Positions 18,725 through 23,627 of a stretch of 64,000 bases of DNA are shown here, piece by piece. Made by a program: the position numbers and the translations under genes. Location of the stretch: positions 395,216-459,215 of the forward strand of contig JAAUZD010000026.1 of assembly GCA_014804785.1 (NCBI GenBank), written 5' to 3'. Numbering within the stretch: position 1 is the first letter of the stretch; each line of letters starts with the position of its first letter. The DNA comes from Lachnospiraceae bacterium. Lineage in GTDB: Bacteria > Bacillota > Clostridia > Lachnospirales > Lachnospiraceae. Below the pieces are notes generated by a model. It was not told the DNA's origin. It saw nothing but the letters and a program-made list of their open reading frames with translations, and did no database searches.

Positions 18725-19915
18725 CTAATCGATTGCTTCGCCTGCCTTGTATCTGGCAACTGCATTTTGAATACGCTGATTGGGATCAAGGAGATCGCTG
18801 ATGGAAGCGTCGTGGTTTAAAGTGTCTATCAGATATGCAATATATTTGCTCATATCACAGTCGATGTACCATTCACGCTGAAGCAGTTCGGGTGCCTGGT
18901 AGATCAAGTTGGTGGTCAGCACTTTATCAATGATTCCGTTTTCATAAGCTTTGTCAAAGCGATCGAGCCCATTGGTGAACAAGCCGAAGGTGGTGCAGAT
19001 GAATATCTTTCGTGCCTTCCGCTCTTTCAGGGCGGTGGCAACTTCTAATACACTTTCACCGGAAGAAATCATATCATCAATGATGACCATGTCTTTTCCT
19101 TCCACGGATGATCCCAGAAATTCATGTGCAACAATGGGGTTGCGTCCGTTCACTACGCGGGTGTAATCTCTTCTCTTATAAAACATACCCATATCCAGCC
19201 CAAGCACATTGGCCATGTAAATGGCGCGGTTCATGCCGCCTTCATCGGGGCTGATTACCATCATATGATTAGAATTAATCTGCAGATCCTTCACATGTTT
19301 CAATAATCCTTTTATAAATTGATAAGTAGGCTGTACCGTTTCAAAGCCGTGCAGGGGAATTGCATTCTGCACTCTGGGATCATGCGCATCAAAGGTAATG
19401 ATGTTGTCAACACCCATACGGACCATTTCCTGAAGCGCAAGCGCACAATCAAGGGATTCTCTGGCAGTTCTTTTGTGCTGTCGGCTCTCATAGAGGAAAG
19501 GCATGATGACGGTGATGCGTCTTGCTTTCCCGCCTACAGCAGCGATGATCCGCTTTAAATCTTGATAATGATCGTCAGGAGACATATGATTTTCGTGTCC
19601 GCACAGGGAGTAAGTCAGGCTGTAGTTGGCAACGTCAACCAGAAGATACAAATCCGTTCCGCGGACAGATTCTAAAATCATTCCTTTGGCTTCACCGGAT
19701 CCAAAACGCGGCACTTTTGCTTTTAAAATATAAGAATCTCTTTGATAACCGGCAAAAGCAAGGCTGTCTTTGTGTTCGCTTTCACGGACGGTACGCCATT
19801 TTACCAGATAATCGTCTACTTTTTCTCCGAGGGAACGGCATCCTTCTAAGGGGATGATTCCGAGAGAACCTACGGGGATTGTTTCCAAGTTTCTTGTTTC
19901 CTCACGATGTGCCAT
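18725..19915 (-). CDS. prs: Ribose-phosphate pyrophosphokinase
   Basis: PFLYESRQHKRTARESLDCALALQEMVRMGVDNIITFDAHDPRVQNAI; DMVIIDDMISSGESVLEVA PRPP motif. Confidence 0.92.
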   Translation of the reverse strand: MAHREETRNLETIPVGSLGIIPLEGCRSLGEKVDDYLVKWRTVRESEHKDSLAFAGYQRDSYILKAKVPRFGSGEAKGMILESVRGTDLYLLVDVANYSLTYSLCGHENHMSPDDHYQDLKRIIAAVGGKARRITVIMPFLYESRQHKRTARESLDCALALQEMVRMGVDNIITFDAHDPRVQNAIPLHGFETVQPTYQFIKGLLKHVKDLQINSNHMMVISPDEGGMNRAIYMANVLGLDMGMFYKRRDYTRVVNGRNPIVAHEFLGSSVEGKDMVIIDDMISSGESVLEVATALKERKARKIFICTTFGLFTNGLDRFDKAYENGIIDKVLTTNLIYQAPELLQREWYIDCDMSKYIAYLIDTLNHDASISDLLDPNQRIQNAVARYKAGEAID

Positions 19916-19924
19916 GAAGGTACC

Positions 19925-20896
19925 TCACTTTCTGTTTTGAAGTCTTTTTTTGAGCATCCGGATATCAGGTCCGGTGAATTTACATATGGTGTAATGATTG
20001 GTTATCCGGGAAAAAATCCGGTCCGAATATCGGTTCCGCAAATCCTCTAAGGAAAGATTCGTTGAAATGATAGTGGACTTTTTCCCAAGGTGACGCTGGT
20101 TTAGTAAGGAGAAGAATACAGAAACAGTAACGTTGCTGGTGTATTCCGTCCCCAGATCATCAATAATGAGCAAATCACAACCGTATAAATCTTCATGAAA
20201 ACTGAGAATGTCGTCTTTGTTCTTGTAGTCAAACATATTTCTGGATAAAGTTTCAAAGAGTCCGGCAGAACTAAAATAAATAACAGAATGACCGCTTTCT
20301 ATCAGTTCCTTGGCAATACAGCCGGATAGAAAAGATTTGCCCGTACCCACTGTACCATAAAAGAATAAATTTTGATAGTCTGAATTGAAAGTTTTTATAA
20401 AGTTTCTGCAGGCGTGAACAGAATTCTTAAACCGTTCAAGATCCTCGCCTTGATAATAATCATAAGTGAGAACATCAAAGTTTTCTTTTTCTAACATACT
20501 GCGGATGCCGGACTGCTCGTATAGCAGGTCTATGACGGCCTGCTTAAAGCAATGGCATTTGGTTCCCTCGATATATCCGGTATCTTTACAGTCGGGGCAG
20601 TCGTAAACAGGTTCAAGATAATTAAGAGAATAGCCGGCACTGATAAGAAGCTGCTCTTTCATATTGGAAAGATCACGAATGGATTTTTTTAAATCTTCCA
20701 GTGCATGTTCATCACCCTCCAGCAGTTTTTTGCCATGGGATACAGAGGTGGCGGCAATCGCCTCGGAAAGCTCACGGTATCCGGGTACATTTTGATATAC
20801 TTCTGCTGTGCGTTCCTCTACAAGGTGCCTGTTCCTTGTCTGTTTATCTTCGTATTCACGCATGATTGCTTCATACTGAGAGTTTGTTAATGCCAC
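19925..20896 (-). CDS. DnaC/DnaI-like replicative helicase loader ATPase
   Basis: CPDCKDTGY zinc-binding region; FYGTVGTGKSFLSGCIA Walker A; LLIIDDLGTE Walker B. Confidence 0.92.
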   Translation of the reverse strand: MALTNSQYEAIMREYEDKQTRNRHLVEERTAEVYQNVPGYRELSEAIAATSVSHGKKLLEGDEHALEDLKKSIRDLSNMKEQLLISAGYSLNYLEPVYDCPDCKDTGYIEGTKCHCFKQAVIDLLYEQSGIRSMLEKENFDVLTYDYYQGEDLERFKNSVHACRNFIKTFNSDYQNLFFYGTVGTGKSFLSGCIAKELIESGHSVIYFSSAGLFETLSRNMFDYKNKDDILSFHEDLYGCDLLIIDDLGTEYTSNVTVSVFFSLLNQRHLGKKSTIISTNLSLEDLRNRYSDRIFSRITNHYTICKFTGPDIRMLKKRLQNRK

Positions 20897-20920
20897 GGTT
20901 ATTCTCCTTATGTTTTAGTT

Positions 20921-21964
20921 CTAATTGCTTAAGATTTCCTTCTCAAGCGCATCAAAATCATAATCACTGTGCATAAACTGATTGAACTGCCCTGCACTGG
21001 TGTTTTGGGATTTTGATGGAAGGGACCTGCTCTTTGTGTAGGCTTCGTCCAGAGCTTTTATATCAGATTTATGATGTACCTGTTTCTGATACCAGCTGGT
21101 CAGGATACTATCTGCGTACTCAAAGCGATGCTTATCCGTTGCCATGACCGTGCGGCGGCAGGCTTCAAGGATGATATCTTTTGAAAAGCCGTAGGTCTTT
21201 ACCCATTTGATGGCAAAATCAGCCTCCGCTTTTGTGGGAGTACCGGATTTACCAAGAGCTTTCATAGTATCATAAACAGTCTTATCATATTTGACCGCAA
21301 ATTTGGCTGCCTGTTTTGGCGTAGTAATACCTTCCTCAGCCCAGCTGATGGCAACTTTTTCTATGTATCTGAAGTCTTTTTTTCCTTTATCTACGCAATA
21401 CTGAATCAGGTAATCGATTAAGTCTTCCGAAAATTTAAGCTTGTCTGTGAAGAAAAGGATGGTCCTTATTTCAGAAGGGCTTAAAGGCTTTCCGATATAC
21501 TGCTCCGCTACAAAAAGGATTTGGGATGTTTCCTCATTGTTCTTGAATTCCTTTAATTCATCTACGCTGTAAGCAGGTTTGGAGAATTCGGTTTTCTCCA
21601 AAGGAGCTTCCGGCTTGGAAGGAAGCGGGACGACAGGGGCAAGTGATACCGCATCATTGCCGGGGCGTCTGGAAATATCCATAAGCTGGATTCCGGAAAG
21701 ATTTTTGGTATTGTCATATTCCAGGACAAGGAGGTGATTTTTTTCCCAGTACCGGAGGGCCCTGACCACATCTTTTTCTGTATGATTAAATTGATCTGCT
21801 ATGTCAGAGACACTGGTAGTGTGTCCGGCGCTCATAACGCGGAGCAGATACAAGTATATTTTGAGTTGGGCATCGTTGGCATCTCTCATATATTCATCGA
21901 TGAACAGATTGGGCACAACGGTCACATCAGAACAGTTTTCCTGATAAATTTTAAAGCGACTCAT
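20921..21964 (-). CDS. DnaD domain protein
   Basis: Repeated DnaD/DnaB2 domains (LSPSEIRTILFFTDKLKFSEDLIDYLIQYCVDKGKKDFRYIEKVAISWAEEGI; YGFSKDIILEACRRTVMATDKHRFEYADSILTSWYQK); start at MSRFKIYQEN. Confidence 0.9.
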   Translation of the reverse strand: MSRFKIYQENCSDVTVVPNLFIDEYMRDANDAQLKIYLYLLRVMSAGHTTSVSDIADQFNHTEKDVVRALRYWEKNHLLVLEYDNTKNLSGIQLMDISRRPGNDAVSLAPVVPLPSKPEAPLEKTEFSKPAYSVDELKEFKNNEETSQILFVAEQYIGKPLSPSEIRTILFFTDKLKFSEDLIDYLIQYCVDKGKKDFRYIEKVAISWAEEGITTPKQAAKFAVKYDKTVYDTMKALGKSGTPTKAEADFAIKWVKTYGFSKDIILEACRRTVMATDKHRFEYADSILTSWYQKQVHHKSDIKALDEAYTKSRSLPSKSQNTSAGQFNQFMHSDYDFDALEKEILSN

Positions 21965-22089
21965 GGGATCATCACCTGACCTTATATTATTTACACGAAT
22001 GAAAGCAAATTGAATTATAGCACAAGCATTTTGAAATTGAAATAGGAAAAAAATATAAAAGTTCAGTATTTTCAAGGGGTTACGGATTT

Positions 22090-22247
22090 TGTGGAAAGTG
22101 TGGACAATGTGGATATAAGAAAAAATATCGCATGTGCATGTCCTTAAAAGTGTGTAAAATATCGGAAAAAATAAAATTAAAATTAAAAAAATATCCACAT
22201 ATTTGACATGCATTTTCGGCATCCAAATATGTGGATAATGTGGATAA
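22090..22247. promoter_or_regulatory. DnaA-box cluster upstream of dnaD
   Basis: TGTGGAAAG-TGTGGACAA-TGTGGATAT (22090-22116), ATATCCACA (22191-22199), TGTGGATAA-TGTGGATAA (22230-22247); TGTGGATAA is the reverse complement of TTATCCACA. Confidence 0.7.
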
Positions 22248-23627
22248 TCAGCGCTTTAATAAATCTTCTCCAATATTTACAACGTCTCCGGCTCCCATAG
22301 TTATCAACAAATCTCCGGGAGAACAATTTTCTGAAAGAAAATTTTCAATCTCTGCAAAAGAAGGAAAATAGTAACAGCTTTTTCCCAAAGCTTCAATTTC
22401 CTTCTGAAGCGTTTTTGAACTGATTCCAAGGTCATCTGTCTCGCGAGCAGGATATATATCAGAAAGAATCACATGGTCAGCAAAGGTCAGCGCCCTTGCG
22501 AATTCTTTCATAAAGGTCTTGGTGCGGGTAAAGGTATGAGGCTGGAACACGCACCAAAGGGTTTTGTGCGGATAATTTAATGCCGCATTTAAAGTTGCAG
22601 TAATTTCTGTGGGATGATGTGCATAATCATCTATTATAACAGTTCCGTTCATGGTGCCCTTGTATTCAAAACGCCGGTCGGTGCCATGGAAATTGGACAA
22701 AGCTTTTTTGATTGTAGCGTAATCGATGGAAAGCAGGTCGGCAAGAGCGATGGCTGCCATGGCATTGTAAATATTATGTTGCCCCGGGACATCAAGGGAA
22801 ATCGTTTCTTTTGAACCGTCTTTTCTTATTAAAATGAAACTTGCGCATCCGGTTTCGTTGTAACGGATATCTTCCGGATGATAATCATAAGAATCCGTAC
22901 CGCCATAGGTGATAATGCGGCAGTCGAGATCATGCAGAATGGTATCTATTTCAGGGATTTCACCGTTAATGATTAAAGTACCGTCCTTGGGAAGAAGAGC
23001 GGCAAATTGATGGAAGGAATGACGGATCTGATTGATATCTTTAAAAAAGTCCAGATGATCTGCTTCCACGTTAAGAATAATACCTATTTTGGGGAAAAAG
23101 CTTAAAAAGCTATTGGTATACTCGCAGGCTTCCGTAACAAAGCATTTGCCGTGGCCAATGCGGATATTACCGTCGATTGTCTTAAGGATGCCGCCAATGG
23201 AAAGGGTAGGATCGACTCCTGCCTCCAAAAGGATTTCTGAGACCATGGAAGTGGTAGTGGTCTTTCCGTGAGTACCGCTGATTGCAATCGGAATCTCATA
23301 ATTTTTCATCAGCTGTCCTAAAAGCTGTGCCCTGCTCAAAGAAGGGATTTGCAGTTTCTGCATGGCGACATATTCCGGATTGTCGGGATGAATGGCGCTG
23401 GTATATACTACTAAATCAATGTCGCTGCTTAGATTTTCTGCTTTTTGTCCATAATAGATAGTGGCGCCTTTTCTGGAAAGAAGTTCTGTCAAAGAAGATG
23501 CCTTGGCATCGGAGCCGGAAACTGTGAAGCCCTTATCTATCAAAATCTCGGCAAGACCGCTCATACTGATGCCTCCGATTCCGATAAAATGTATGTGAAT
23601 AGGGTGATTAAAGTCTAAGTGATACAT
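22248..23627 (-). CDS. murC: UDP-N-acetylmuramate--L-alanine ligase
   Basis: HFIGIGGISMSGLAEIL, AISGTHGKTTTTSM, DDYAHHPTEITATL. Confidence 0.96.
   Translation of the reverse strand: MYHLDFNHPIHIHFIGIGGISMSGLAEILIDKGFTVSGSDAKASSLTELLSRKGATIYYGQKAENLSSDIDLVVYTSAIHPDNPEYVAMQKLQIPSLSRAQLLGQLMKNYEIPIAISGTHGKTTTTSMVSEILLEAGVDPTLSIGGILKTIDGNIRIGHGKCFVTEACEYTNSFLSFFPKIGIILNVEADHLDFFKDINQIRHSFHQFAALLPKDGTLIINGEIPEIDTILHDLDCRIITYGGTDSYDYHPEDIRYNETGCASFILIRKDGSKETISLDVPGQHNIYNAMAAIALADLLSIDYATIKKALSNFHGTDRRFEYKGTMNGTVIIDDYAHHPTEITATLNAALNYPHKTLWCVFQPHTFTRTKTFMKEFARALTFADHVILSDIYPARETDDLGISSKTLQKEIEALGKSCYYFPSFAEIENFLSENCSPGDLLITMGAGDVVNIGEDLLKR

Follow-up and report, generated by a model that had tools for sequence, protein, structure and literature searches.

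Genes and DnaA boxes between murC and dnaD

The window analysed here, a stretch of 64,000 nucleotides from a Lachnospiraceae genome, carries murC and dnaD side by side on its minus strand, with six DnaA boxes, a terminator hairpin and a predicted promoter between them. The features of the locus are as follows:

22248-23627, minus strand: murC (UDP-N-acetylmuramate--L-alanine ligase; TIGR01082, E = 9.6e-144; Mur_ligase domains), upstream of and co-oriented with dnaD
22239-22247, minus strand: DnaA box 1, TTATCCACA, abutting the murC stop codon and outside the hairpin
22230-22238, minus strand: DnaA box 2, TTATCCACA, abutting box 1 and forming the 5' arm of the murC terminator hairpin
22179-22238, minus strand: murC intrinsic terminator, a hairpin spanning box 2 through the inverted box plus a downstream U tract, TTTTTTAATTTT
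22191-22199, plus strand: inverted DnaA box, ATATCCACA on the plus strand and TGTGGATAT on the minus strand, forming the 3' arm of the terminator
22090-22116, minus strand: promoter-proximal array of three abutting same-orientation boxes, ATATCCACA TTGTCCACA CTTTCCACA
22037-22042, minus strand: weak -35-like hexamer, TTTCAA, with a 17-bp spacer
22014-22022, minus strand: extended -10 of the predicted dnaD promoter, TGCTATAAT, 67 bp from the array and conserved in homologues
20921-21964, minus strand: dnaD, replication initiation protein (TIGR01446, PF07261)
19925-20896, minus strand: helicase-loader-like AAA+ ATPase of the DnaC/DnaI type (NF005304/PRK06835)
18725-19915, minus strand: PRPP synthetase-like gene, prs (NF005299)

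Read along the minus strand in the direction of dnaD, the murC stop codon is followed by the box pair (22247-22230), the inverted box (22199-22191), the array (22116-22090), TGCTATAAT (22022-22014) and the dnaD ATG (21964). On the plus strand, the array reads TGTGGAAAG TGTGGACAA TGTGGATAT (22090-22116) and the distal pair is two copies of TGTGGATAA (22230-22247) directly adjoining the murC stop codon (22248-22250); the inverted box and box 2 are 39 bp apart. All six boxes named in a preliminary description of this DNA are present base for base, and the profile matches agree with its placement of dnaD and DnaC/DnaI-like genes downstream on the minus strand. Because only 24 bp separate dnaD from the loader gene and 9 bp the loader gene from the PRPP synthetase-like gene, these three genes probably form one operon. 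The closest relatives of this DnaD protein come from two genomes (90 and 87%), followed by Parablautia intestinalis (82%).

The dnaA gene and oriC lie on the same contig, 349 kb from the locus. Replication forks meet the murC-dnaD operon head-on in 9 of the 10 genomes in which oriC could be placed (the present genome, at window positions 18725-23627, and G035, G085, G102, G005, G145, G164, G157 and G141). Such an orientation is unusual for essential genes in Firmicutes.

The box cluster is far above chance expectation, with six boxes between positions 22260 and 21966, whereas 5000 simulations under a first-order Markov model of the region yield 0.30 on average and at most 3. The locus is the densest 158-bp stretch for boxes in the 64-kb window. 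A genome scan for the perfect box TTATCCACA, which the preliminary description had proposed, yields 76 copies, and two copies occur within 50 bp of each other only at the murC-dnaD locus, at oriC and at C26:72821/72866. By the pattern searches from which all genome-wide counts derive, exact abutting pairs occur only at the murC-dnaD locus in the 3.97-Mb genome, and abutting pairs with one mismatch occur at three other places. The absence of spacers between boxes was rightly regarded as unusual: the oriC box pair of this same genome has a 2-bp spacer, and E. coli DnaA prefers 2-3 bp (PMC11317965).

A murC terminator with DnaA-box arms

The murC intrinsic terminator uses box 2 and the inverted box as its arms, a relationship that the preliminary description had overlooked. 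The hairpin of the window, taken with its U tract, has a predicted folding energy of -22.6 kcal/mol (z = -5.37). Among 132 unique homologues, the mean folding energy is -20.8 kcal/mol, compared with -12.2 kcal/mol when the loops are shuffled, and the eight inner stem positions are paired in 77% of cells, compared with 40% with shuffled loops and 43% with the halves swapped. The element thus has a stable hairpin, a U tract and a covarying stem, as is typical of an intrinsic terminator. A simple terminator scan, which has a loop limit of 8 and a different stem rule, gave no match for the hairpin.

The arms of the hairpin behave differently from its inner stem. Among the 132 homologous hairpins, the 5' arm is TTATCCACA or ATATCCACA in 112 and the 3' arm is TGTGGATAT or TGTGGATTT in 120, such that the arm letters stay those of a DnaA box while the inner stem letters drift and pairing holds. 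Box 1, which lies outside the hairpin, is still a box in 119 of the 132 elements. The spacing between the arms is 37-40 bp in 121 of them and 29-30 bp in another 6 (127 of 132 together). Since the arms keep their box letters while the inner stem drifts, and since box 1 is kept outside the hairpin, the terminator sequence seems to be under a double constraint, to serve both as predicted DnaA sites and as a terminator.

Conservation of the arrays and their phasing to the dnaD promoter

We sampled 120 genomes of the family, each from another genus. DnaD was found in 118 of these, and the upstream DNA was read for 110. The murC gene adjoins dnaD in 103 of these 110 genera, and abutting same-orientation arrays are present in 89 of the 99 genera whose murC-dnaD gap is at least 100 bp. 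The full three-part element (a pair at the murC stop codon, an inverted box and a proximal array) is present in 49 of the 99. None of the four genera with a murC-dnaD gap below 100 bp carries an abutting array, and none is seen in G010, where murC and dnaD overlap. In another genus (G030), murC and dnaD are separated by an unrelated co-oriented gene; here the array has kept its place at the murC end, ahead of the inserted gene. Compact genera that lack the terminator retain same-orientation boxes before the dnaD promoter. The preliminary description had staked its proposal on the cluster being conserved upstream of dnaD in relatives, and the arrays in 89 of 99 genera leave that proposal standing.

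Sister families of the order also keep murC-dnaD with boxes. Among 22 dnaD genes from other orders of Clostridia, none was found beside murC, none carries an array, and just one has a perfect box within the final 300 bp upstream. When abutting pairs were sought genome-wide with the pattern TWWTCCACATWWTCCACA, matches were obtained in 79 of the 120 genera, compared with none for the reversed control, and in most of the 79 matching genomes a match lies at dnaD. Two genera (G116, locus L019, and G109) keep the layout with altered boxes (TTATCCACT, TTATCCACC and ATATCCACG), which possibly reflect a shift in DnaA specificity.

A second conserved element with abutting DnaA boxes follows an NlpC/P60-SH3 gene and in many genera precedes hpf, which encodes a ribosome hibernation factor (L258, at G000:C4:149633-149702; also L265-L284 and L285-L314). 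It consists of a single box, then 52-53 bp, then the motif TTATACAC located 12 bp before an abutting pair. Of 30 genera examined, 18 have abutting boxes upstream of hpf, this genome among them, and some genera retain the element at its site although hpf lies elsewhere. The distance from this element to the hpf -10 shows at best marginal phasing (best R of 0.57 compared with a 95% null of 0.51), on which we base no claim. In one genus, abutting pairs and a triplet are also found at oriC, upstream of dnaA, mixed with 2-bp spaced boxes (L276, G016).

The predicted dnaD promoter has a conserved extended -10 of the form TGnTATAAT, and a poor -35 is usual in homologues (a mean of 3.1 of 6 matches to TTGACA, compared with 2.6 for shuffled sequences). 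Between the last abutting box and the extended -10, distances cluster near 46, 56, 66 and 76 bp, in steps of approximately 10.5 bp. When each genus is represented by one genome (n = 64), the phasing statistic is R = 0.69 at 10.5 bp compared with 0.43 at 9 bp, and for arrays of at least three boxes it is R = 0.92 at 10.25 bp compared with 0.60 at 9 bp; uniform random distances reach, at their 99.9th percentile, 0.35 with n = 64 and 0.56 with n = 25. These values derive from boxes and -10 elements identified by pattern, in related genera and with many draft genomes. Distances from the -10 to the ATG and from the box to the ATG have no period. The gap class switches at least 24 times on a MurC tree that is itself weakly supported. 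The loss of one 9-bp box could explain part of the step between 67 and 76 bp, but the series 46, 56 and 66 bp is not produced by 9-bp steps.

Because the box-to--10 distance moves in steps of approximately one helical turn (10.5 bp), DnaA and RNA polymerase would keep the same relative face of the DNA. In our view, no other observation argues as strongly as this phasing that RNA polymerase at the promoter of dnaD is the target of whichever factor occupies the array. Clustered consensus boxes upstream of dnaD, held in a fixed geometry to its promoter, are the arrangement expected of a DnaA-regulated promoter, but phasing by itself does not fix the sign of regulation. Between the array and the -10 (22023-22089 in the window), genera with a 67-bp gap have in common a motif of approximately AACCCnnGTATTTACnGGnnTTTTCGG, at which a second factor may bind.

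Probable DnaA control of the dnaD operon and alternative readings

We consider that the murC-dnaD gap is probably an order-wide DnaA-responsive control region for the dnaD and helicase-loader operon. The likely binder of the array is DnaA because the box letters are those of the DnaA consensus. Termination after murC would shield dnaD from readthrough, by way of a hairpin whose arms are themselves DnaA boxes. The abutting same-orientation boxes lie at about -83 to -109 from the putative start site. DnaA on these boxes would be held on one side of the helix and act on RNA polymerase; the promoter combines an extended -10 with a poor -35. In this way the supply of DnaD and of the helicase loader would be tied to DnaA. 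The boxes, their conservation, the covariation of the hairpin and the helical phasing are read from the sequences; DnaA binding, promoter use and the sign of regulation are points that we infer. The suggestion in the preliminary description that DnaA gates expression of its partner initiation genes from two arrays is, as an inference, well supported as regards gating, given the order-wide conservation, the association with a promoter-containing gap, the loss of arrays when murC and dnaD abut, and the phasing to the -10. Both arrays exist, but they are not equivalent, because box 2 of the distal pair, with the inverted box, makes up the murC terminator arms, and phasing to the dnaD promoter is confined to the promoter-proximal array.

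DnaA is known both as an activator and as a repressor (PMC8203912). Activation of dnaD appears more likely here, with repression a clearly smaller chance, because the array lies upstream of the polymerase footprint, on a fixed face, at a promoter with a weak -35. Repression of the operon, through a DNA loop joining the distal to the proximal cluster or through a roadblock to RNA polymerase, is an unlikely reading that nonetheless draws on the A/T-rich stretch flanked by two clusters, on a phasing that would suit a loop as well, and on the repression of dnaA by DnaA in many bacteria (PMC8203912). Against it stand the position of the array upstream of the expected polymerase footprint, a distal-to-proximal spacing without clear phase (R = 0.23 at 10.5 bp and 0.49 at 11 bp), and the absence of the distal inverted box from many genera that retain the proximal array. 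Rather unlikely, too, is a role of the boxes as a DnaA-titration sink near oriC, comparable to the six box clusters in B. subtilis, with dnaD a mere neighbour. The cluster is the densest of the window, and B. subtilis clusters outside oriC set the timing of initiation (PMC5295017, PMC13220808). In keeping with a titration-type cluster, box density is high outside oriC, and of 10 genomes checked 9 have the locus within 14% of the chromosome from oriC (1.4-13.5%). The second abutting-box element keeps its site when hpf is elsewhere. However, the tenth genome has the locus 27% from oriC, the arrays disappear once the promoter gap closes, and the phasing is strong although a sink requires no fixed helical phase to a promoter. 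Titration and regulation are mutually compatible. The preliminary description had also raised a reactivation locus, and a DARS-like role finds no support.

It is very improbable that the boxes are only a terminator, with CCACA/TGTGG arms kept for RNA structure and DnaA playing no part. The covariation and the U tract of the hairpin built from box 2 and the inverted box speak for such a reading, but the arms match the DnaA consensus in most of the 132 hairpins while the inner stem is free, box 1 is kept outside the hairpin, the arm spacing is stricter than an RNA requires, and the proximal array is in no hairpin. We give hardly any credence to a second replication origin or a DnaA-driven unwinding or restart site, which box clusters with A/T-rich DNA would resemble: GC skew is positive throughout the window with no switch at the site, and oriC lies at dnaA, 349 kb away. 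Two repeats of the TAG/TAC trio occur in only 2 of 121 box-to--10 gaps, with no longer run, a weak test since the oriC2 control also gave just 2.

Comparison with known systems gives partial likenesses to the proposed control region. At B. subtilis sda/yqeG, a DnaA-box cluster likewise precedes a gene with feedback on replication, and DnaA activates sda (PMC4447404). The accessible part of that account describes no abutting array, helical phasing or terminator-arm layout. The genes and their order differ: dnaD, an essential initiation gene, contrasts with sda, which blocks sporulation. The B. subtilis clusters outside oriC (Okumura et al. 2012, as cited in reviews) are also dense, near oriC and potentially able to bind much DnaA, but none of the eight regions strongest in vitro lies at dnaD or dnaB-dnaI, and the boxes here are rigidly phased to a promoter. 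In the E. coli DnaA regulon, tandem pairs are the binding unit and replication genes are included, but the pairs have 2-3 bp spacers rather than 0 bp and the target genes are others (PMC11317965). E. coli datA and DARS1/2 are likewise DnaA-box clusters outside oriC, but they act on the DnaA nucleotide state with IHF/Fis, and no comparable layout is present at murC-dnaD; B. subtilis is reported to be without datA, DARS and IHF (PMC13220808). The Caulobacter regulon places DnaA boxes upstream of replication genes (dnaB helicase, dnaQ), but in a distant phylum, at the helicase gene rather than a loader operon, and with no abutting array described there (PMC8203912). No prior report of DnaA boxes at dnaD/murC, in Lachnospiraceae or at hpf was found in the searchable, open-access literature.

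Some observations count against DnaA control of the operon. In vivo, E. coli DnaA favours a spacing of 2-3 bp, not the 0 bp seen here (PMC11317965). B. subtilis dnaD and dnaI are absent from the top 20 DnaA regions in vitro (PMC4447404), although the gene context there differs. The second abutting-box element persists without hpf, and such elements therefore need not all be gene-specific.

In B. subtilis, DnaD acts downstream of DnaA. The DnaD protein of that species inhibits cooperative DnaA binding (PMC5295017), which makes a feedback loop plausible: if DnaD limits DnaA cooperativity, the circuit could be self-limiting. We tentatively propose, as a possibility that we hold with some doubt, a direct circuit dating from the ancestor of the order, in which zero-spacer DnaA would touch RNA polymerase in a fixed register and activate dnaD, the other boxes would double as an insulating terminator, and DnaD would close the loop on DnaA.

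How the levels of initiator and helicase loader are matched is poorly known in Firmicutes and, to our knowledge, regulation by DnaA nucleotide state is weak or unknown there. If true, a DnaA-DnaD promoter link in a dominant gut order would make the matching question directly testable. It would further provide a series of naturally occurring phase variants from which the contact between DnaA and RNA polymerase could be read, and a case of DNA sites acting both as protein-binding boxes and as RNA terminator arms.
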